This document shows positions 37,539 through 51,677 of a DNA stretch of 64,000 nucleotides, piece after piece. Location: positions 428,798-492,797 of the forward strand of contig NZ_CAAHFG010000004.1 of NCBI RefSeq assembly GCF_900890425.1, read 5' to 3'. This DNA is from Pontiella desulfatans. Lineage in GTDB: Bacteria; Verrucomicrobiota; Kiritimatiellia; Kiritimatiellales; Pontiellaceae. How positions within the stretch are numbered: position 1 is the stretch's first letter; every line of letters begins with the position of its first letter. Both the position numbers and the translations under genes were made by a program. The notes under the pieces are model-generated. The model ran no database searches. It was given only the letters and a program-made list of their open reading frames with translations, and was not told the origin of the DNA.

Positions 37539-37859
37539 ATGCAACCGTTCACCGAAGAGATCATCGAAATCATCCGCTCCATCCCGCGCGGGAAGGTGGC
37601 GACCTATGGCGGGATCGCGGCGCTGGCCGGGAACGCGCGTGCGGCGCGGCAGGTGGTGCGGGTGCTGCATACGTTTGGCTCGAAGGAAAAGCTGCCGTGG
37701 TGGCGGGTGATCAGCAGCAAGGGAACCATTTCCCTCAGGCCCGGCCACGGCTACGAGGAGCAGCGCGACCTGCTGGAGGCCGAGGGCGTGGAGTTAGGCG
37801 AGGCGGGCAGGATTGACCTCGAACGCTTTCTTTGGGAACCTGACTGGCTCAACGATTAA
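37539..37859 (+). CDS. Alkyltransferase-like protein (ATL), MGMT homologue without the acceptor Cys
   Basis: 106 aa. It has the DNA-binding domain of O6-alkylguanine alkyltransferase: IPRGKVATYGGIAALAG and ARAARQVVRVLHTFG (the Arg finger region). The PCHRV acceptor motif is changed to PWWRV at residues 53-57, so Trp54 replaces the reactive Cys. That is the hallmark of ATL proteins, which bind O6-alkylguanine and recruit nucleotide excision repair. The length is typical. It starts 3 bases after the previous gene. Confidence 0.92.
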   Translation: MQPFTEEIIEIIRSIPRGKVATYGGIAALAGNARAARQVVRVLHTFGSKEKLPWWRVISSKGTISLRPGHGYEEQRDLLEAEGVELGEAGRIDLERFLWEPDWLND

Positions 37860-37866
37860 GGCGCCA

Positions 37867-39459
37867 ATGAATAAGCGGGATCTGTATCATCTTACCAGGC
37901 AGGTTGATTTCCTATGGAAGAGCACGTTGGTGTTGGCGGTGGTCTTTGTTTTGCTGGGCATGGGGATCGGCTCCCTGAACACGGGGCGCCTGGACTCCTA
38001 TCAACGCATCGTGTCGGTGCCGCGTTATGTGGATGAGTTCACTGAAGAGCTCGATGGCGACTATACGCGGCCCGCGCACAACACGGCGGTGGCCGATGCC
38101 GTCCGCGACATGCTGGCGAGTCCTGCGCCGTTCCACGAAAAGCTCGAAAACATCCGGTTCCTGCTCTATTTCGCCGCCCCGGATGATCGGGTTTCCGTGC
38201 CCGTTGCAACGGAGCTCCCCAACCTTTCCGGGAAGGAGCATGCGGTGGCGTCGGCATTTGTTGCGGCCGCCTCGGGCGAAAAGAACGAAGCGGCGCTCGT
38301 TGCCCTCGCGGGGGGCGATGCCCCGGTTGCGCACGCCAACTATGCGCTGGCCCTGCTCCGCGAGAGCCGGCAGGAAAATTCCAAGTCCATCGCCGCGCTG
38401 AAGCGGGAAATCGAATTCCACAACTCCGATCCGGCCCGTAGGCGGTTGGTAAACACCTATCTCGACGCAAAACAATTCAACGAACTCGAAAAGCTCATCT
38501 CCGATCCGGAATACAAACCTTTCATCTCCAGCTTTGTGTTGCGGGAGGTCGCCCTCTCCAGGATGGATTGGCCTGCGTTGGTCAAGGCGCATTTCAGGTC
38601 GGCCTACGAGGGCACCAACCTGGCGATGGCCGTGCTGGCCCTGCTATCCGGGCTGGTTTGGGCCACGATTCTTTTCCGGTTCAATGGAAGCCTTTCCGTG
38701 CTGAAGCTCGCGGTGCCGGCCCTGCTGCTCGGTGCATTGTCCACCCATGCCACCCTCCTGTTCATCTATTGGCAGGAATACCAGCTCGGTTTCACGATGG
38801 GGCAGGAGACGGTGGGGCAGATCGTCTACTGCATCCTCGGCATCGGATTGCGCGAGGAGGCGATGAAGCTGCTGCTTTTTGTTCCCCTCATTCCCTTTCT
38901 GCTGAAGCGCACCGATTTGGAGATCCTGACGATTGCCGGGCTGGTGGGGCTCGGATTTGCCATCGAGGAAAACATCAACTATTTCGAGAGCACGGCGGGC
39001 GTGAGCGCGCTGGGCCGTTTTGCCACCGCCAACTTCCTGCACATTGCGCTCACGGCCATGTGCGGCCTAACGCTGACGCGCGCCGTTGCGCACCGGGGCG
39101 AGGAGATCCAGCATGCGCTGACCACCTTCGTCTCCGCCGTTGCCATCCACGGGCTCTACGATGCCTTCATCATGGTTCCGGCGGTGGAGGATTATTCCTT
39201 CCTTTCCTCCACGGTCTTTGTGCTGATGGCCTATCAATATTTCGGGTGGTTGCGCCATTTGCGGGAGGAGTGGCGGGATCCCGTCAGCATTACCTCGGTT
39301 TTCACGCTGGGCGTCCTTCTCGTGACCGGGATTTCGTTCTGCCTCTATGCCTGGAAGGCCGGGCCCTATCCCGCCTTGCAGGCCATCGGCTACGAGGCCA
39401 TCGGGGTTGGAATCATCCTGATTCTATTCTACCGCGAAATTCCGGAAACCCTCGAATAG
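37867..39459 (+). CDS. PrsW-family intramembrane metalloprotease
   Basis: 530 aa from ATG 37867. One N-terminal helix (STLVLAVVFVLLGMGIGSL) is followed by a 200-residue soluble, mostly helical region, then about eight membrane helices. PrsW-type motifs lie in the membrane part: GLREEAMKLL (EExxK), GFAIEENINYF, NFLHIALTAMCG and AIHGLYDAF (zinc-binding His). PrsW cleaves anti-sigma factors in Gram-positives; here the target is unknown. The long N-terminal extracytoplasmic domain is unusual and may recruit a substrate. Confidence 0.88.
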   Translation: MNKRDLYHLTRQVDFLWKSTLVLAVVFVLLGMGIGSLNTGRLDSYQRIVSVPRYVDEFTEELDGDYTRPAHNTAVADAVRDMLASPAPFHEKLENIRFLLYFAAPDDRVSVPVATELPNLSGKEHAVASAFVAAASGEKNEAALVALAGGDAPVAHANYALALLRESRQENSKSIAALKREIEFHNSDPARRRLVNTYLDAKQFNELEKLISDPEYKPFISSFVLREVALSRMDWPALVKAHFRSAYEGTNLAMAVLALLSGLVWATILFRFNGSLSVLKLAVPALLLGALSTHATLLFIYWQEYQLGFTMGQETVGQIVYCILGIGLREEAMKLLLFVPLIPFLLKRTDLEILTIAGLVGLGFAIEENINYFESTAGVSALGRFATANFLHIALTAMCGLTLTRAVAHRGEEIQHALTTFVSAVAIHGLYDAFIMVPAVEDYSFLSSTVFVLMAYQYFGWLRHLREEWRDPVSITSVFTLGVLLVTGISFCLYAWKAGPYPALQAIGYEAIGVGIILILFYREIPETLE

Positions 39460-42168: not shown

Positions 42169-42174
42169 TTGGCA

Positions 42175-44172
42175 ATGGTTTTGCGGGTGGGTATTCTTGG
42201 GATGCTGCTGTGGTGCGGGACGGGTTTCGCGCAGTCCTACACCGATTTGGCCAAGGCCTTGGCGGAGACATCCGAAAAATCCGGGATCCACCGGCTCAAG
42301 GCGCAGGTGGCCCAGGCCGCCGTGCGGCGGCTCGAAACCGAAAAGCTCTCCGCAACCGAAAGGAAAAAACTCAAGGCCGAGGCGCTGGCGCTTTGCTCGG
42401 ATGTGCAGCTGGGGGCGATGGATCTTTGGTTCGGCGACTCGGTCGTGACCTGGGGGCGGTTGCTATTGCTCGAGGGCAACTGGAAGGAGGCGCGTTCCCT
42501 GCTCTGGGGCCAGGCCGAGGTGTTGCAGAACATCGAGAAAAACCTCGCGGCCAACGGGATTCCGGTTTCGTCCATCAGCCCGGTGGCGGGTTGCCGCCAT
42601 GCCCTCGGCGAGACCTACCGCATGGAATACGAAGCAACCAACCAGCTCGAACCGGCGATCGAGGCGCTCAAACATTTCTACAACGTCCAAATTAAATATG
42701 GGGACAGCCCGTGGGGAATGCAGGCGCAGCAAAAGGCGGAAGCCGCAAAGGCCTTTGTTGAAGGCCGGGGCAAAGAGGTGCGGATCGACCTTGGCCAACA
42801 CCGCGCCACCTTCGTTCGGAACAAGTTTAGGCTGGGGGCCCGGCTGACCGCCGAAGGAAACCATGGGGCCGCAGTGGATCAGGTTCTCGACGCCATCAAT
42901 TTTTTCCCGGAGTCGGGCCAAACCATCGAGGCCCTGCGCAATCTGGGTGTCTGTTTCCTGAACCTCGGGCGCGATGATGAGGCGATGGCCTCCGCGGAAT
43001 ACCTTTGCGAGCGGTTCGGCTCCGATACCAACGCACCCGTCGCCGTGCTCGGCATTGGGCGGCAATACATCGAGTCGGGCCATGAGGAAATGGGGGAAGG
43101 CGTTTTCGATCTCTATCTGGCTTCCTTCCCATCGGACGCCCGCCGCACCGATATCCTCTCCTATTTTGCGTGGAAGGCCTACAAGACCGGGGATTGGCCA
43201 GAGGCCATCAACCGCTTCCATCAGCTGGAAGCCGCGCTCCGCACCAAAGGGGAAACGGGCGCCGAGCTCCAAAAGGCGGTCTACATCCAGGCCAGCCGTT
43301 CCGCCGATCCCGCCCGGCTCGAGCAGTTCATTGCGGAATTCCCGGACTCCAACCTCGTGCCAACCGCGCTTGGGGAAAAGGCGCAGGCGCTTCTGGTGGC
43401 GGGCGCCTTCGATGCCGCCTTCCAGACCTTGGAAACCCTCGGCGAACGTTTTCCGGAAGCCGCCGCATCGCGCACCGCCTTGGCCGGCCTGATCGTCGCG
43501 GCCGTCGAGGCCGAACGGTTCGATATTGCCGGGCAGGTGCTCGACCGGATGCTCGCGGACCGGAAAGCCTATGGCCACGAGGTCTATCTTTCCACCGGCG
43601 AGGGTCTGCTTTCTGCCCAGCGCCATACGCTCGCCGAACGCGCATTCGCCGCCGTTCCGCTGAACGCCAAGCGGGCATTCGTTGAGCGCGCCCTGTATGG
43701 AACCGCCGCTGCGCAGTTTGGCCGCGGACAGTTCGGGCAGAGTTTCCAGACCCTGGAAACGCTGCTGGCGAAATATCCGAACAGCGGGCGCTATTTCGAT
43801 GCCCGCCTCATGCAGGCGCGTTCGTTGGTCCGGCTCGGCCGGATCAATGAAGCGGCGGAGCCCTATGGCGAAGTGGTTGCCCTGAAGCAGGACTATGCCG
43901 TGGCCTACGAGTGGGCGCAGGTGCTGCAGGAACCGGAGGAAAAACTCGCCGCCCTCCAGCGCATCGCCCTGCTGGCCGACCCCGACACCCTGGCCAACCG
44001 GCCGCTCATCGCCGATAGCATCGTCGCCAGCCTACCGATCGCTTTGGAGCTGCGGAAATACCAACTCGCCGTCGAAAGCTGCGACCAGTTCGAGGAACTC
44101 TTCCCCAAGCATGATCAACTCAACGTGGTGGCGGGATACCGGAAGGAGGCTGCCGATGCGCTGGCGCAATAG
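42175..44172 (+). CDS. Exported TPR-repeat protein at the head of the ExbBD operon
   Basis: 665 aa from ATG 42175 (TTG 42169 possible). The signal peptide is MVLRVGILGMLLWCGTGFAQ. The rest is helical tetratricopeptide-like repeats: TIEALRNLGVCFLNLGRDDE, PVAVLGIGRQYIESGHEEMG and GRYFDARLMQARSLVRLGRI are typical units. It is probably periplasmic and a scaffold for protein contacts. The downstream gene overlaps by 17 bases, and ExbB/ExbD follow, so it is likely a structural partner of the energised complex. It has no enzymatic motif. Confidence 0.8.
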   Translation: MVLRVGILGMLLWCGTGFAQSYTDLAKALAETSEKSGIHRLKAQVAQAAVRRLETEKLSATERKKLKAEALALCSDVQLGAMDLWFGDSVVTWGRLLLLEGNWKEARSLLWGQAEVLQNIEKNLAANGIPVSSISPVAGCRHALGETYRMEYEATNQLEPAIEALKHFYNVQIKYGDSPWGMQAQQKAEAAKAFVEGRGKEVRIDLGQHRATFVRNKFRLGARLTAEGNHGAAVDQVLDAINFFPESGQTIEALRNLGVCFLNLGRDDEAMASAEYLCERFGSDTNAPVAVLGIGRQYIESGHEEMGEGVFDLYLASFPSDARRTDILSYFAWKAYKTGDWPEAINRFHQLEAALRTKGETGAELQKAVYIQASRSADPARLEQFIAEFPDSNLVPTALGEKAQALLVAGAFDAAFQTLETLGERFPEAAASRTALAGLIVAAVEAERFDIAGQVLDRMLADRKAYGHEVYLSTGEGLLSAQRHTLAERAFAAVPLNAKRAFVERALYGTAAAQFGRGQFGQSFQTLETLLAKYPNSGRYFDARLMQARSLVRLGRINEAAEPYGEVVALKQDYAVAYEWAQVLQEPEEKLAALQRIALLADPDTLANRPLIADSIVASLPIALELRKYQLAVESCDQFEELFPKHDQLNVVAGYRKEAADALAQ

Positions 44173-44836
44173 CCTTCTGCTTCTGCTCTTGGCGGGTTCC
44201 GCCGAGGCCGCCTATGTCGTCACCCAATCCGGCCGGCAGATCAACGGCACGCAAATCAGCGCCGCCGAAGATGGTTCAGTTACGCTTGTTACTGCAACCG
44301 GCCAGAAGATGACCTTCCGGAAAGGGCAGTATCGTTCCGCATCCGCCGATCGGCCGCCGGAGCTGGCGCAGGCGGAAAGGCTCCTGCTCGAAGGGCAGGG
44401 CGAAAAGGCCGTTCCCTTGCTGGAAATAGTGAAGGCCGACTGCCGCTTCCTGGCGTGGGACCAAAATGCGATCCTCCTGCTGGCCAACCACTACTATGCG
44501 ACCGGGCAGTTTGCCCAGGCCGCCACCGAGTTCCAACGGTTGGAAAAACAGGATGCGGATGTTCAGGCCAAGTTAAGGGAAGCCATGGTCAAATCCGGCC
44601 AGACCGGTTCGGTGCTCCCTGTTTTGGAGCAGGATATCGCCACGGGAACTCGCGAGGCGGCGGCCCAGGCCTATCTCATGCGCGGCGACCTCAAGGCCGC
44701 CCAAGGCGACACCCAAGGCGCGCGCCGCGACTGGCTCAAGGTCGCCACCTTTTTCAAGGCACAACAGGAACTCGCAAAAACGGCGGAACAAAAACTCGGA
44801 CAACAGGAGGATTTGCCACAAAAGAACGCAAAGTAA
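44156..44836 (+). CDS. Secreted small protein with TPR-like region
   Basis: 226 aa from ATG 44156 with AGGAGG 7 bases upstream, inside the end of the TPR gene. The signal peptide is MRWRNSLLLLLLAGSAEAAY. A short SH3-like beta segment follows (YVVTQSGRQINGTQISAAED), then helical repeats (ILLLANHYYATGQFAQAATE). The last residues, PQKNAK, are encoded by the start of a dispersed acgcaaag word repeat (44815-44884), so the native C-terminus may have been replaced. It probably works with the preceding TPR protein in the periplasm. Confidence 0.7.
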   Translation: MRWRNSLLLLLLAGSAEAAYVVTQSGRQINGTQISAAEDGSVTLVTATGQKMTFRKGQYRSASADRPPELAQAERLLLEGQGEKAVPLLEIVKADCRFLAWDQNAILLLANHYYATGQFAQAATEFQRLEKQDADVQAKLREAMVKSGQTGSVLPVLEQDIATGTREAAAQAYLMRGDLKAAQGDTQGARRDWLKVATFFKAQQELAKTAEQKLGQQEDLPQKNAK

Positions 44837-44884
44837 GCAAAGACCTATTCTCTGGGTTCTTTGCGCTCTCTCGTGGCTAATCGT
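44815..44884. repeat. Inverted word repeat overlapping a stop codon
   Basis: The left arm gccacaaaagaacgcaaag and the right arm ctttgcgctctctcgtggct are imperfect reverse complements. The stop codon of the 226-aa gene lies inside the left arm. Same word class as the repeats at 9859, 46621 and 55130. Confidence 0.6.
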
Positions 44885-44905
44885 TTTTAAGAAGGAGAAG
44901 TGGGT

Positions 44906-45649
44906 ATGAAACGGATGATGTTGGTTTTGCTAGTGTGCGCGGCCCCTGTGTTTGCGCAGGAGGTGGTGAAGAGCGAGGCGGTGGCGACGGCCGAGGCCGC
45001 GCCGGAGGAGGTTTCCGGCTTCATGGATGTCGTCAAGGGCGGCGGCGGGTTCGGGATGGCGCTTTGGATCGGGCTGGCCGGGCTGTCGCTGGCGGCGGGC
45101 ACCTTGATCGTCGATTCGGTCATCAACATTCGCGAGTCGAAGATTATTCCCAAGACGCTGGTGTCGCTCGTGCGCGAGGCGATCGACGAGGGGAGCCTGA
45201 AAAAGGCGGCGCAACGCTGCAAGGACGTGCCGGGGCCATACTCCAATATTCTGCTGGCCGGGTTTGAAAACGTTGAGGATGGTTTCGAGACCGCGCAGGA
45301 GGCCATCGGCATCGCCGCCGACATGGAGAGCGAAAAGATGCTCCAGCGCGTCAACTATCTCAACGTGGTCGGCAACCTGGCCCCGATGCTCGGCCTGCTC
45401 GGCACGGTGCAGGGGATGATCCTCGCCTTTGCTACGCTCGGCACCACCTCCGGCGCGGCCAAGAACGCGCTGCTCGCCATCAACATTTCGCAGGCGCTCT
45501 ACACCACCGCCGCCGGGCTCGTCATCGCCGTTCCGGCCATCGGCTCCTACTTCTTTTTCCGCAACCGCGCCGCCAAGGTCATCCTCACCATGGAAAGCCT
45601 GACCATGGAGGTCATGAAGGGACTTAAGAATAAGGAGACAAACCACTAA
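44906..45649 (+). CDS. exbB: MotA/TolQ/ExbB proton channel protein
   Basis: 247 aa from ATG 44906, AAGGAG 8 bases upstream. An N-terminal signal-like segment (MKRMMLVLLVCAAPVFAQ) is followed by three membrane helices in the ExbB arrangement: FGMALWIGLAGLSLAAGTLI, then a long cytoplasmic region, NYLNVVGNLAPMLGLLGTVQ and INISQALYTTAAGLVIAVPA. The APMLGLLGTVQGMI and ALYTTAAGL motifs are diagnostic of the family. It forms the pentameric channel with ExbD. The extra N-terminal signal segment is common in ExbB of PVC and delta-type bacteria. Confidence 0.95.
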   Translation: MKRMMLVLLVCAAPVFAQEVVKSEAVATAEAAPEEVSGFMDVVKGGGGFGMALWIGLAGLSLAAGTLIVDSVINIRESKIIPKTLVSLVREAIDEGSLKKAAQRCKDVPGPYSNILLAGFENVEDGFETAQEAIGIAADMESEKMLQRVNYLNVVGNLAPMLGLLGTVQGMILAFATLGTTSGAAKNALLAINISQALYTTAAGLVIAVPAIGSYFFFRNRAAKVILTMESLTMEVMKGLKNKETNH

Positions 45650-45651
45650 TC

Positions 45652-45716
45652 CACGCTAATGGACACTAATCAGCCATAAAGATAATTAGTGCTGATTAGT
45701 GAAAATTAGTGGTTAA
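45652..45716. repeat. Inverted word repeat, cactaatcag family, within the operon
   Basis: cactaatcag and ctgattagtg, with outer words ctaatgg and aattagtgg, form an imperfect stem in the 73-base gap between exbB and the first exbD. It belongs to the dispersed intergenic class and probably folds in the mRNA. Confidence 0.6.
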
Positions 45717-45722
45717 AGAAGC

Positions 45723-46157
45723 ATGAGAAGGAGTTTCCAGAAAGGAGGTAACGGCGGCATCAACATGACGCCGATGATCGACGTGGTGTTCCAGATGATC
45801 ATTTTCTTCGTCTGCACGGCGCAGCTGGAGCAGGAAATGTTTTCGGAATTCATCAACCTGCCCGACTCGCCCAACGCCCCCTCGATGGCGCAGGAAAAAG
45901 ATCCCCGCACCATCACCATTGAAGTCGATGAAAAAGGGAAGGTCTCCATCGCCCGGACGGCTTTGACCATGGCCAGGCTCCGGAGCGTGTTGAACAAGAC
46001 CGTCGCCGACTATGGAAAACACGGAATCACGATTCCAATCCTGATTCGCGCGGATGCCGGCGTGCAGCACAGCCACGTAAAGAACGTGATGGATATCTGC
46101 ACGTCATCCGGCCTCTACAAAATCGCATTCGTTGCCGTAAAGGACAGTATTGATTAA
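45723..46157 (+). CDS. exbD: ExbD/TolR-family protein, first copy
   Basis: 144 aa. One N-terminal membrane helix with the ExbD signature GGINMTPMIDVVFQMIIFF (the Asp in TPMIDVVF is the proton-carrying residue). The periplasmic domain ends in MDICTSSGLYKIAFVAVKD, the usual last helix and strand. Paired with a second, diverged ExbD immediately downstream; two ExbD per ExbB are common in this lineage. It works with ExbB to use the proton motive force. Confidence 0.93.
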   Translation: MRRSFQKGGNGGINMTPMIDVVFQMIIFFVCTAQLEQEMFSEFINLPDSPNAPSMAQEKDPRTITIEVDEKGKVSIARTALTMARLRSVLNKTVADYGKHGITIPILIRADAGVQHSHVKNVMDICTSSGLYKIAFVAVKDSID

Positions 46158-46184
46158 CCGCGAAGGAACGCAAAGAACGCAAGA

Positions 46185-46601
46185 ATGAGACGGAAGAAGA
46201 CCAGAAGATTTGCAGGAACCAACGAAGAAATCGAACTATCGATGACGCCGATGATCGATGTGGTGTTCCAGTTGCTGATCTATTTCCTGGTGACGTTCAG
46301 CACGGCGGATATCCTGGCGCATCTGGACATTTCCCGACCATCGCCGGATGCGGCGCAGAAACAGCAACCTCCCGCCGATATGATCCGTGTTGCGGTGCTT
46401 CCCCAGGGTTTCGCGATCAACGGTAGGGAAGTCACGGAGGAGGAGCTCTCCGTAATGTTAAGGAAGCTGGCCAGCGTCAGCACCCGGCAAACGGTGCTCG
46501 TCTCCTGCGACGACCAGTCGCTCCACGGGCGCCTCATCAAAGCCCTGGACCTGTGCGCCGAAAACAAACTCACACAGATTTCAGTCATGAGCGGGAAATA
46601 G
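46185..46601 (+). CDS. exbD: ExbD/TolR-family protein, second copy
   Basis: 138 aa. The N-terminus is very basic (MRRKKTRRFAGT), then ELSMTPMIDVVFQLLIYFLV with the conserved Asp. The periplasmic domain has GREVTEEELSVMLRKLA and ends LDLCAENKLTQISVMSG. It is about as long as the first copy but clearly diverged, so the two may form a heteromer. A short acgcaaag word lies between the two genes. Confidence 0.93.
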   Translation: MRRKKTRRFAGTNEEIELSMTPMIDVVFQLLIYFLVTFSTADILAHLDISRPSPDAAQKQQPPADMIRVAVLPQGFAINGREVTEEELSVMLRKLASVSTRQTVLVSCDDQSLHGRLIKALDLCAENKLTQISVMSGK

Positions 46602-46620
46602 GATGAGCCACAAGAATATG

Positions 46621-46688
46621 TATGACCGCAAAGACGCGAAGACGAAAAGGTTCAGGAGTCTTCGTTTCTTCGCGTCTTTGCGGTCATC
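46621..46688. repeat. Inverted repeat, accgcaaagacgcgaag family, with perfect 21-bp arms
   Basis: atgaccgcaaagacgcgaag plus a (46622-46642) is the exact reverse complement of 46667-46687. The loop is 24 bases. It is the best-preserved copy of the family in the window and lies between the second exbD and the TonB-like gene. Confidence 0.8.
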
Positions 46689-46697
46689 GATAAACCC

Positions 46698-48200
46698 ATG
46701 AGCAGAAGCGGGAACAGTTTAATCAGCAAGATCGGTGGCCCGGCGGTTTCGGTGGTGGTGCATGGGATCATCTTCGTGGTGCTGCTGAAGGTGCTGGTCT
46801 TCCATGCCCCGGAGGAGGAGCGGGCCATCGACGTGCAGGTGGTGGAGGAACAGGTTCGGGAATTGGACAAGATCGAGCGCGAGGTGGAAAAGGCGGAGGA
46901 AATCGAGACCGAGGAAGAACTGCTGGAGGCGCCGGAAGAACTGGCCGATGAGCTGCCGCCGGATGACGGGCTTCAGGATTCCATGCTGGAGTCGGAGCTG
47001 GACTTAAGCGGGTTGGATTCGGTGGCGGAGATCGAAAGTCCGTTGGTGATCAAGGGGCTGATGGTCGGGCGCTCGGCAGCGGGGCGCAAAAAGCTATTGC
47101 GTGAATTTGGCGGGCGCTATGGCGGGCAGGCCGAAAAGGCAGTGCTCAAGGGATTGGACTGGCTGCAGACGGTGCAGAGCGAGGACGGCTCGTGGGGCGT
47201 GGGAAAAAGCAAGAGCATGACCGCCAAACAGGAACGGGCGCGGTTGACAGGATTGGCGCTGCTCAGCTATCTCGCCCATGGCGAAACGTCGCAGTCGGAA
47301 CAATATGGCGGGACGGTGCAACGCGCCATCGAGTATCTACTGGATGAACAGGATCCAGCAACCGGTCGCTTTTGCCCGCTCTCGAAAACGGTTGGTTCGC
47401 ACGACGACATCGGGGTCTATGGCCACGCCATTGCCACCTATGCGCTGTCGGAAGCGTTCGCCTTGACCCGCTCCCCGGCATTGAGGCAACCGGTTGAAAG
47501 GGCGGTGGAAGTGATTATCGACGGACAGCAGGCCGGCGGAGGGTGGGACCACCGCTACCAGCACGACAAGTGGAGCGATCTTTCGGTCGGTGGCTGGCAG
47601 GTGCAGGCGCTCAAGGCGGCACAGTCGGCCGAGGTTCAGGTTGAAGGCATCGGTGAGGCACTGGCCAAGTCGGTTCCCTTTGTGCAGGGCATGCACGCGA
47701 AGGAGGGCCAATTCTATTATCGCCTCGGCAACAAGACGCCCAACGCCGATCTCGACTATATGACCGGCGTGGCGGTGCTCTGCCTTCAACTAGCCGGGCA
47801 GGGCGATGCGGAGGAGGTCAAGGCCGGGCTTGCTTTTCTCAAGGACAAGGAGTGCTCCGACTGGGACGAGGGCTGGGAAAAGACCGGCAAGAACAAGAGC
47901 TTCAACATTGCCTACGAGTGGTACTACAACACGCAGGCCATTTTCCAGAAGGGCGGTTCCAAATGGTCGAGCTGGAACAACCGGTTTGCGCCGATGCTCA
48001 TCGAGGCGCAGGATGCCTCCGGCGCCTGGAAGCCGCCCTCGGAGGCCGGTGAAGCCGTGTCGAAGGACATCATCTATACGACCGGCTTTTGCACATTGTC
48101 GCTACAGGTCTACTATCGTATCCTACCTTCTTTCAAGAAGGTGGCCGGCACGGACGAGCACTTTGCATTCGAGAACGATGTGAAGATCGAAATTTATTAA
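46698..48200 (+). CDS. TonB-like N-terminus fused to a squalene-cyclase-like alpha/alpha repeat domain
   Basis: 500 aa. Residues 1-100 look like TonB or TolA: a membrane helix (AVSVVVHGIIFVVLLKVLVF) and then an acidic, extended periplasmic stretch (REVEKAEEIETEEELLEAPE). There is no TonB C-terminal domain. Instead residues 140-480 carry prenyltransferase/squalene-cyclase-type repeats: VLKGLDWLQTVQSEDGSWGV (DGSWG at 163-167), YGHAIATYALSEAFAL, IIDGQQAGGGWDHRYQH and MLIEAQDASGAWKP. Catalytic DxDD- or VSDCTAE-type cyclase motifs are not seen, so it may bind and not cyclise. It follows ExbB-ExbD-ExbD, which should energise it. This fusion is the oddest protein in the window. Confidence 0.8.
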   Translation: MSRSGNSLISKIGGPAVSVVVHGIIFVVLLKVLVFHAPEEERAIDVQVVEEQVRELDKIEREVEKAEEIETEEELLEAPEELADELPPDDGLQDSMLESELDLSGLDSVAEIESPLVIKGLMVGRSAAGRKKLLREFGGRYGGQAEKAVLKGLDWLQTVQSEDGSWGVGKSKSMTAKQERARLTGLALLSYLAHGETSQSEQYGGTVQRAIEYLLDEQDPATGRFCPLSKTVGSHDDIGVYGHAIATYALSEAFALTRSPALRQPVERAVEVIIDGQQAGGGWDHRYQHDKWSDLSVGGWQVQALKAAQSAEVQVEGIGEALAKSVPFVQGMHAKEGQFYYRLGNKTPNADLDYMTGVAVLCLQLAGQGDAEEVKAGLAFLKDKECSDWDEGWEKTGKNKSFNIAYEWYYNTQAIFQKGGSKWSSWNNRFAPMLIEAQDASGAWKPPSEAGEAVSKDIIYTTGFCTLSLQVYYRILPSFKKVAGTDEHFAFENDVKIEIY

Positions 48201-48217
48201 GGGAGCGGGAGAGCGTG

Positions 48218-50431
48218 ATGGAAGGGCTAATTATATTGCTGGTATTCGTGGTGTTTGTTTTGCCGCTGATCCTTTCCATCGTGGCCTTGGTCAAAGTGAC
48301 TTCGTTGCGGCGGGATTACGAGGCCAGCCGAAGGGCGGAACAAATTCCGCCGGCCTGGAAAGAGCCGCCTCTACCGGAAGAAACGCCGGCAAAAGAGATT
48401 CCGGATGCGTTCAAGGTTCCGGAACCCGTTGTGTCGCCTCCCCCCATTCGCCCGGCGGCGGCCAAACCGCCACCGGCCGCCCCGAAGCCACCCAAGCCAA
48501 AAGCCGGAATCGAATTCATGCTCGGCGGCAAGGCGGCGAGCTTTGCCGGGATTGCCATATTGGTGATCGGCATTGTCCTGCTGGTCGGCTACTCGATCCA
48601 GCAGGGCTGGATTGGCCCGGGCACACGGATCATTCTCGGCCTTCTCTGCGGCGGGGCGATGGTTGGAATTGGCCATTTCGTGGAGCGGAAGGACGACCGC
48701 TACCAGCTGTTCGCACGCGTCCTGACCGGCGGTGGCGGGGCACTCTTCTATTTCTGTGTTTTCGCCGCCTACAGCATCTATCAGCTGATCGGTGTCTGGA
48801 TGGCGGGTGTTGGGTTGGTGGCCAGCGCCTTCGCGGTGTTTGGCTTGGCCATGGCCTACCGCTCCCAAGCGGTCGGCGTGCTGGGCGTGCTCGGTGCGTT
48901 CATCACCCCCCTGTTGATCGGCGGCGACTTCGATAAGGGCGTCTTTCCGCTGGTCTACATCGCCGTCATCAACGCGCCCGTCATTCTGCTCGGCATCAAG
49001 CGCAACTGGCAGGTGCTATACAACCTCTCGTTCGTGCTCACCGTCATCATCTTCTGCATCTGGCTGGATTGGTTCGGGCGCAGCGAATGGTGGATTGGCC
49101 TGGCGTTTGCCGTCGGCTACTTCCTCGAATATGCCGCCCTCGGCCTGCTGAAGCTGCGCTGCGAGCAGCGGATTGCCGGACGCCGCATCGATATTGTCCG
49201 TTTGTTGCTGGCCTCGCTGTTGTTGCTCGGTGCGGTCTATTGGATCCTCGACGATGCCGGCATGGACGGATGGCTCGGAACCGCCTTCCTGGCCATGGCG
49301 TTGCTTCACATCGGCCTCGCGGCCTTCGCCTTCAAGGTGCTGGCGCGCTTCAACGAGGAAATCCTCGCCTTCCTCGCCGGAGGGCTTGTCTTTGCCACGC
49401 TCGCACTCCCCGCGCAGCTCGATGGCGAATGGGTATCGCTGGGCTGGGCCATCGAAGGCGTCGTGCTGGCCTGGTTCGCCGGCCGGGTACGTTCCCGCCT
49501 GTTGCAATGCGCGGCCTTCCTGCTGGGCTTCTTCGGCATCATGAAATCGCTGGTGTTCGATGTTTCGTTGCACGATGCCCCCGGCAACCTGTTCCTGAAT
49601 GCCCGCTTCATGGTCGGCCTTCTTTCCGCCGCGCTCCTCGGCGTCCAGGGCTGGCTGGCCGGCCGCTTCGACGACGAGACAACGCCCAAGTGGCAGGAGG
49701 GCCTCTGGTGGGTCGCCGTGCTCTCGGCGCTGGCCGTATTCTTCGCCGACACCTTCTGGACCATCGGCCCCGACGAGGCGCTGGCCTGGGTGATGACCTC
49801 CTTGGCGCTGCTGGTGGCCGGCGCGGCTCTCGTCTATTTCATGCCCGCCCAATCATCGCTTCAGTTGCTGGGCGGAATCCTGCTGATCCTGGTTCCGCTG
49901 AAGCTCTTCCTGCTCGACTCGTGGATCGGCTTCGATGTCGGCGGCTACCGCATGCGCGCCTTCGCCAACCCGGCGGTCTACATCCAGCTGTTTGCCCTCG
50001 CCGTGGTCGCCTTCCTTTTGCCGCGCCGCATGGCCGGCAACAGCGCCACCTACATGCTGCCCTCGCCCGACTTTTCCACCCTGCTCAACATCCTTTCGCT
50101 GGCCGGCGCCCTCGGGGTGCTGACCATCGAGCTCTTCCGGATCTCGAACGACTGGGCCGGCACGGCCGTCACCATACTCTGGGCGGTGAGTGCCATCACG
50201 TTGACCATCTTTGGCCTTGCCCGCCGCCGCCGCGCGCACCGCTATTTCGGTCTCATCCTGATCGGCCTCACCACGCTCAAGGTGCTGGTCGTCGATTCTT
50301 CCGAGCTGAAAGGGCTCGAACGCATCTCGGCCTTCATCGTCACCGGCGTGCTTCTGCTGCTCCTCTCCTTCGCCTACCAAAAGGCCTCCGCCTATTTCCA
50401 TTCCTTGGAGGACAACAATGAAGAAATCTAA
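48218..50431 (+). CDS. DUF2339-family polytopic membrane protein
   Basis: 737 aa from ATG 48218 (GTG at 48215 also possible). The first helix, IILLVFVVFVLPLILSIVAL, is followed by a coiled and Pro-rich cytoplasmic stretch (IRPAAAKPPPAAPKPPKPKA) and the conserved FMLGGKAASFAGIAILVIGI start of the DUF2339 core. About 20 further helices follow, and the end is FIVTGVLLLLLSFAYQKASA, as in this family. Family members often stand beside DUF3999 genes, as here. The function is not established; the operon context suggests an envelope role linked to the ExbBD complex. Confidence 0.88.
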   Translation: MEGLIILLVFVVFVLPLILSIVALVKVTSLRRDYEASRRAEQIPPAWKEPPLPEETPAKEIPDAFKVPEPVVSPPPIRPAAAKPPPAAPKPPKPKAGIEFMLGGKAASFAGIAILVIGIVLLVGYSIQQGWIGPGTRIILGLLCGGAMVGIGHFVERKDDRYQLFARVLTGGGGALFYFCVFAAYSIYQLIGVWMAGVGLVASAFAVFGLAMAYRSQAVGVLGVLGAFITPLLIGGDFDKGVFPLVYIAVINAPVILLGIKRNWQVLYNLSFVLTVIIFCIWLDWFGRSEWWIGLAFAVGYFLEYAALGLLKLRCEQRIAGRRIDIVRLLLASLLLLGAVYWILDDAGMDGWLGTAFLAMALLHIGLAAFAFKVLARFNEEILAFLAGGLVFATLALPAQLDGEWVSLGWAIEGVVLAWFAGRVRSRLLQCAAFLLGFFGIMKSLVFDVSLHDAPGNLFLNARFMVGLLSAALLGVQGWLAGRFDDETTPKWQEGLWWVAVLSALAVFFADTFWTIGPDEALAWVMTSLALLVAGAALVYFMPAQSSLQLLGGILLILVPLKLFLLDSWIGFDVGGYRMRAFANPAVYIQLFALAVVAFLLPRRMAGNSATYMLPSPDFSTLLNILSLAGALGVLTIELFRISNDWAGTAVTILWAVSAITLTIFGLARRRRAHRYFGLILIGLTTLKVLVVDSSELKGLERISAFIVTGVLLLLLSFAYQKASAYFHSLEDNNEEI

Positions 50432-51677
50432 TCTGATACTGGCCGTCTTCGGCTCGCTCTCCCTATGTTGCGCCGCCGAATCTTCCATGGCTTCCCGCTT
50501 CGAGCTGTGCCGCCAGATCGACGGCGAATTCACCGCCGGGCAGGTGGGGCGGGTCTCGCTACCCGGCGATGTGTTCGCCCAGTGCCGGTCGTTCCCGGAC
50601 GACCTGCGTATTCTGGATGCGGCTGGAAAGCAGTGGCCATTCTACCTCTCGGTCGCCCGCAGCCAGGTCGAGTCGCGCGGGCAGCTGGCCGAAATCGTCA
50701 ATGCCTCGTTTGTCGATGCGGAGGAGCGCTATTGGCAATTCGACCTGGTGATTCCCGCAGTTGATGGAAAAGTTCAGCCGCACAATCAACTCGAGCTGCG
50801 TTCCTCCGGCAACGGCTATGTTCGGCGGGTCGAGGTGTTCACCGCCCGTGAGCCGCGCGGCCATATGGCCACAGGCTACCTGATCCGGTCGGCCCACCAC
50901 CGCAATGCCGGGAACCGGCTTGTCCGCTATCCCGCCTCCGATGCCGCGCGCCTCCACGTGCGGGTCTATGCCAACGCCAAGGACGCCACCGAGACATTCT
51001 CGGTTACCCGCGCAAACGTTCTCCACAAGGTAGCAACCACAGCGGAACGCGAAACCGTCGAATACAAGGCATTGGACGTTCCCGAGAACGAAACAACCCA
51101 GACCGTGCAGACATTCCTGTTCGATACCGGGTTTGAAAACCGGCCGGTTGAGTTTATTTCTTTCAATGTGAAGACCGCATCCTTCGTTCGTAGTGTCACC
51201 GTGCAGGGGCGCAACCGCGAAAACGAACCGTGGCAGCGGCTGGGCGGCGCCGGAATCCATCGCTATGGCGACGAATCCAAGGCGGAAATCACGCTCAGAG
51301 CCAACAAGCGCTTCCTCAAAATCGATATCCACCACTACGACGATGTGCCTCTGGCGGTAGAAGCCGTGAAGCTCGAAGCCATCCCGCGCCACCTCGTCTT
51401 CGAGGCGGCGTCCGCCGCCTCGGCCTCCCTCTGTTTCCGGGCCTGGGACATGCCGACGCCGCGCTACGACCTGGAAGCCCGGCTCTCGAAGCAAACGATG
51501 GCCGAAGCGCCGCTCTACCCAACCTTGGAAACCCGGCCCAACGAAGCCGCCAAAGCCCAGCCCTGGCGCAAATATTCCAAACTGCTCGCCGGTCTGGCGG
51601 TCGGCCTCGTCAGCCTCCTCGTCATCCGCGTCATCATCGGCATGATGAAGCAACAAGCCGGCGACTCCCAGGGCTAA
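50418..51677 (+). CDS. DUF3999-family exported protein
   Basis: 419 aa, ATG 50418 within the end of the DUF2339 gene (14-base overlap), GGAGG 6 bases upstream. The signal peptide is MKKSNLILAVFGSLSLCCAA. The body is mainly beta-sandwich, with FELCRQIDGEFTAGQVGRVS, FPDDLRILDAAGKQWPFYLS and YVRRVEVFTAREPRG-type strands. A C-terminal membrane helix follows (LLAGLAVGLVSLLVIRVIIG). This is the usual companion of DUF2339 proteins. It is probably anchored in the inner membrane with its bulk in the periplasm. Function unknown. Confidence 0.85.
   Translation: MKKSNLILAVFGSLSLCCAAESSMASRFELCRQIDGEFTAGQVGRVSLPGDVFAQCRSFPDDLRILDAAGKQWPFYLSVARSQVESRGQLAEIVNASFVDAEERYWQFDLVIPAVDGKVQPHNQLELRSSGNGYVRRVEVFTAREPRGHMATGYLIRSAHHRNAGNRLVRYPASDAARLHVRVYANAKDATETFSVTRANVLHKVATTAERETVEYKALDVPENETTQTVQTFLFDTGFENRPVEFISFNVKTASFVRSVTVQGRNRENEPWQRLGGAGIHRYGDESKAEITLRANKRFLKIDIHHYDDVPLAVEAVKLEAIPRHLVFEAASAASASLCFRAWDMPTPRYDLEARLSKQTMAEAPLYPTLETRPNEAAKAQPWRKYSKLLAGLAVGLVSLLVIRVIIGMMKQQAGDSQG

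Follow-up and report, generated by a model that had tools for sequence, protein, structure and literature searches.

What does an ExbB/ExbD motor act on when the anchored protein encoded beside it lacks the C-terminal domain of TonB and ends instead in a squalene-cyclase-like fold? The question is raised by a locus of Pontiella desulfatans (genome size 8.66 Mb) within the window, by which we mean the whole stretch of 64,000 nucleotides that was analysed. Six genes follow one another on one strand at 42175-48200 and encode two TPR proteins (TPR1 and TPR2), ExbB, two ExbDs and an anchored 500-aa protein, called the arm below. We predict, with a probability of roughly 0.7, that the set works in the periplasm as a force transducer, powered by the proton motive force in the manner of TonB or TolA.

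The gene set and its arm protein

An earlier note on this DNA had listed these genes together with two DUF genes behind them, and the open reading frames and Pfam matches place all of them on one strand as described. The genes and the parts of the arm are as follows.

42175..44172, +, TPR1, a secreted protein of 665 aa that heads the conserved set (Pfam TPR_6 1.2e-13, YfiO 3.2e-8; same slot in the loci of relatives)
44156..44836, +, TPR2, a small secreted protein (AlphaFold2 mean pLDDT 92)
44906..45649, +, ExbB/TolQ-type motor subunit (PF01618 1.5e-25; conserved Thr residues; tree)
45723..46157, +, ExbD1/TolR-type subunit with transmembrane aspartate (PMID) (PF02472 4e-25; D20 invariant)
46185..46601, +, ExbD2/TolR-type subunit with transmembrane aspartate (PF02472 2.1e-20)
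46698..48200, +, arm of 500 aa with TonB topology and toroid tip (PF13243 SQHop_cyclase_C 1.8e-13; AlphaFold2; alignments of n=23 and n=48)
46722..46796, +, arm transmembrane helix, residues 9-33, S18-x3-H22-x6-L29 (AlphaFold2 helix; alignment of n=48)
46797..47060, +, arm disordered acidic linker, residues 34-121 (pLDDT <50 over most of it)
47061..48128, +, arm alpha/alpha toroid, residues 122-477 (AlphaFold2; structural matches)
48129..48197, +, arm disordered C-terminal tail, residues 478-500 (pLDDT ~32 at the end)
48218..50431, +, DUF2339 gene (Pfam 2.4e-76; closely spaced here, outside the conserved set)
50418..51677, +, DUF3999 gene (Pfam 1.9e-7; closely spaced here, outside the conserved set)

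TPR1 starts at the ATG at 42175, with a TTG at 42169 as the alternative; ExbB, which has a signal-like segment at its N-terminus, could also start at a GTG at 44900. The gap between the ExbD2 and arm genes holds an inverted repeat (46617-46692) with 26-nt arms that are 92% complementary, and the core of one of these arms recurs at ~55183. A second inverted repeat lies in the gap after ExbB (45641-45714), and short direct repeats are found close to 46167. Upstream on the same strand, with other genes between, is a gene for a PrsW-type membrane protease (37813-39459; PF13367 1.8e-16). No polysaccharide genes were recognised in the window operon, and no TonB-dependent receptor was found among the flanking genes scanned around it.

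ExbB and the two ExbDs have the hallmarks of motor proteins: in addition to the PF01618 and PF02472 matches, the pore threonines of ExbB are kept (T169 and T202/T203 are conserved), as is the transmembrane aspartate in both ExbDs. TPR2, which the earlier note had correctly called a small secreted protein, is itself a repeat protein; the AlphaFold2 model depicts a signal peptide, a six-stranded small beta domain (residues 19-63) and a TPR solenoid from about residue 64.

In the AlphaFold2 model of the arm, one N-terminal helix is followed by a long linker, disordered at residues 36-121, and a globular C-terminal domain, a confident alpha/alpha toroid at about residues 122-477. The TonB/TolA-type anchor and acidic stalk proposed earlier hold up in part. 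S18 (44/48), H22 (44/48) and L29 (37/48) are kept, and the TonB-like S-x3-H is present in 43 of 47 arms, whereas the final S of the SHLS pattern (S-x3-H-x6-L-x3-S) is not conserved (n=48). The linker spans ~88 residues in the window protein, of which 35% are D or E, and 79-101 across the aligned arms. It includes a conserved (I/V)-(E/D)-V-x3-E stretch at residues 44-50 that, judging from the alignment, could be a motor box, and a D-V-x-I-E-I-type pattern is conserved at positions 494-499 of the tail.

The toroid itself, anticipated as a squalene-cyclase-like alpha/alpha fold, has squalene-hopene cyclase 2sqc as its best PDB match (Z 26.1 over 292 residues at 3.3 A; Foldseek, VIA-align), followed by AprG (Z 26.0), a cellobiose 2-epimerase (Z 24.9) and GH76 (Z 23.6). 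Q160, G164 and W166 are invariant in the arm alignment, which together with the fold identifies QW-type repeats. The arm protein has no match to the TonB C-terminal domain (PF03544), as the earlier note had stated, and a normal TonB fold was looked for in the structure prediction and not seen; the TonB_C matches of the genome lie elsewhere. Nor does the arm have a Pfam match to a vWA domain, its predicted fold being the toroid.

Conservation of the set and its motor

Relatives of the arm protein occur in 148 of 289 genomes sampled from Verrucomicrobiota, the closest named ones in the arm search being from Pontiella sulfatireligans and, at 80% identity, from a Pontiella desulfatans MAG. We surveyed the neighbourhoods of the best 80 of 346 arm matches, using loci from the contigs of other genomes, so that the linkage figures cover close and middling relatives. 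An ExbD gene lies immediately upstream of the arm relative in 64/72 loci whose 5' flank measures 700 nt or more, and the complete six-gene set is present in the same orientation in 46/48 loci with longer flank. Since both fractions are this high, a chance neighbourhood can be discounted. The proposed linkage of the cyclase-like protein to ExbBD thus recurs in its relatives, with the TPR proteins inside the conserved core. DUF2339 and DUF3999, which the earlier note had counted in, do not belong: other Pontiella genomes lack them downstream of the six genes, and they were seen again in one other Kiritimatiellales contig (L078), ~2.6 kb downstream.

The six-gene set is conserved over a large branch of Verrucomicrobiota and is kept in Kiritimatiellae and Lentisphaeria from many habitats. 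A single contig among the loci (L095) is labelled 'Neomarinimicrobiota' and may be mis-binned. Toroid arms are multiplied in several genomes, distant copies are frequently unlinked or tandem, and three genomes of the same genus gave no toroid match. Across the 289 genomes, toroid and TPR2 are both found in 111, one only in 33 and 23, and neither in 122, an odds ratio of 17.8 that is not corrected for shared ancestry. Genomes with the toroid only come mostly from two families (f36 and f44) in which the TPR2 model matches weakly.

In the ExbB tree, 17 of 18 toroid-linked ExbBs fall in one clade (95/95), which also takes in ExbBs from three genomes whose toroid arms are unlinked; set apart from it are five engines that are related but lack a toroid arm (99/97). 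The exception is toroid-linked L156, from a more distant family and on a long branch. We note that L157, L161 and L162 have toroid-type motors with no adjoining arm and toroid arms elsewhere in their genomes, and that L157 and L162 have three consecutive ExbD genes.

The Pontiella genome contains twelve ExbD genes, which are shared out between the toroid set and the other motors listed here. Among these are a separate TolQ-TolR-TolA-TolB-Pal set and two ordinary TonB sets, and the idea that the toroid set stands in for a missing TonB or Tol was rejected since both were found. Three additional loci (L065, L069 and L070) encode TPR-ExbB-ExbD-ExbD sets and one (L071) TPR-ExbB-ExbD. Behind the L065 set come two arms that share the anchor type and have other tips; no recognised arm gene adjoins L069 or L070 (C2:1101000-1106200 and C1:4280200-4286100). 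In related genomes the arm slot is filled by a vWA-type arm (a weak Pfam match, 2.7e-4, from L160 only) or by a PA14-like arm. By our own reading of the sequences, arms of the L159 type may be PA14-like (one weak Pfam match, 0.19), and those of L065 might be vWA-like, without Pfam support. In the Pontiella genome itself, many further anchored arms lie away from ExbBD genes; in L203-L208 (C1:3684272, C1:4182130, C2:873665, C1:1327358, C3:1158164 and C3:1005387) they have PA14-like and SHD1-like regions, and some are found among sulfatases and fucosidases.

What the arm may hold

In the force transducer that we propose, five ExbB subunits and a single copy each of ExbD1 and ExbD2 would make up the motor, onto which the S-x3-H helix would dock the arm so that it is energised. 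The flexible linker of ~88 residues would let the toroid reach across the periplasm and grip a load in place of the TonB C-terminal domain, with TPR1 and TPR2 as a possible periplasmic scaffold, comparable to CpoB for TolA. For TPR2 we draw this CpoB parallel with caution because the proteins that match its fold best are TPR proteins of a general kind, among them YfgM, CpoB/YbgF (2xev) and BamD at similar Z.

Our tentative candidate for the load is a glycan or a partner bearing a glycoconjugate, which the arm would help to capture or move. The guess is based on the sugar enzymes among the PDB relatives of the toroid, on the multiplied and tandem arms, and on the sulfatases near some unlinked arms. 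Sulfatases make up 7/36 neighbour proteins of unlinked toroid arms and 9/38 of those of six PA14-like arms, which is weak evidence because first-look sulfatase candidates number 555 in this genome.

Nearly as likely, with the glycan load ahead, although doubtful in its own right, is a housekeeping role in the envelope like that of Tol-Pal, in which the load moved by the arm is a tether in the outer membrane or cell wall and TPR2 takes the part of CpoB. Such a role is a rival to the glycan load and not to the force transducer. The conservation of the set over Kiritimatiellae and Lentisphaeria in many habitats suits such a role, as does a TPR fold like that of CpoB, BamD and YfgM; however, the genome has its own separate Tol-Pal set, and a housekeeping system sits poorly with arms that are multiplied in several genomes and a toroid that has no match in three genomes of the same genus.

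We consider it improbable that the toroid is a tethered periplasmic enzyme, active on carbohydrates or isoprenoids, which ExbBD positions or gates with no force passed to the outer membrane. The nearest folds (squalene-hopene cyclases, AprG, 2-epimerases and GH76) are all enzymes, and an enzymatic role would also suit the arm alignment, in which E252 and E196 never vary, D294 and H194 hardly do, and many W and Y are invariant. Yet the catalytic DXDD is found in only 5/23 and 6/48 arm sequences, at scattered positions, on which ground a catalytic terpene cyclase was rejected, and sibling arms of related engines end in unrelated tips, as expected for interchangeable grips. That the toroid drives TonB-dependent receptors in a variant of nutrient import, as its ExbBD partners and TonB-like anchor might suggest, is very improbable given an arm with no TonB_C match and a genome with just 3 Plug domains, two of them within ~7 kb of the two ordinary TonB genes.

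The force-transducer reading invites a broader picture, which as a whole we regard as unlikely. PVC bacteria may have modular proton-driven TPR-ExbB-ExbD-ExbD motors with interchangeable tips (toroid, vWA-like and PA14-like) and many arms encoded away from the motor, some in loci for sulfated-glycan degradation; the toroid arm would then be one grip of an energised capture of macromolecules that dispenses with TonB-dependent receptors. The matter bears on how verrucomicrobial and kiritimatiellal degraders pass large sulfated glycans and mucins through the outer membrane with few such receptors. With its conserved motor and a grip unlike that of TonB, the set offers concrete genes for testing and broadens the loads presumed for ExbBD-type motors.

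Comparison with known systems

The toroid has the fold of squalene-hopene cyclases, AprG, 2-epimerases and GH76 (Z about 23-26) and differs from them in its fusion to an anchor, its linkage to a motor and the absence of a conserved DXDD. With TonB-ExbB-ExbD and TolA-TolQ-TolR the set shares the anchor motif, the motor proteins and an arm in three parts; here, however, the arm is without the TonB/TolA C-terminal domain, the two ExbDs are unlike, TPR1 and TPR2 are part of the set, and neither a receptor gene nor Pal adjoins. The AglRQS-Glt machinery of Myxococcus likewise combines a single TolQ-like protein with two TolR-like ones and has TPR partners; to our knowledge it has no toroid arm. A link to Akkermansia MUL1 was considered and dropped, as ExbBD is not named in the passages on MUL1 that were examined.

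The closest relatives are the vWA force transducers of PVC bacteria, whose arm genes come after a TPR gene, a tolQ-like gene and a pair of tolR-like genes and whose function is unknown (Williams-Jones et al. 2025, PMC12204202). The family from Tichowtungia shares with our locus the TPR gene, the tolQ-like gene and the pair of unlike tolR-like genes, and the arms have in common an anchor helix (of the SHLS type there, with S, H and L kept here), a disordered linker (~100 residues there) and a C-terminal domain other than that of TonB (PMC12204202). All elements of this TPR-TolQ-TolR-TolR class, the anchored arm included, occur together in the window. The claim of an undescribed system therefore has to be narrowed: a sibling class with the same engine is published, while the paper is silent on a toroid-tipped form ('toroid' and 'squalene' have 0 occurrences in PMC12204202), and we found no description of an ExbD/TonB arm with a squalene-cyclase-like toroid tip in the open-access literature. 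The two differ in the tip, vWA there and toroid here, and in the motor, the toroid engines forming an ExbB clade separate from engines with vWA-type arms. Because that sibling class has been known since 2025 (PMC12204202), we see in the toroid arm a probable variant of it, with the same engine architecture and another tip.
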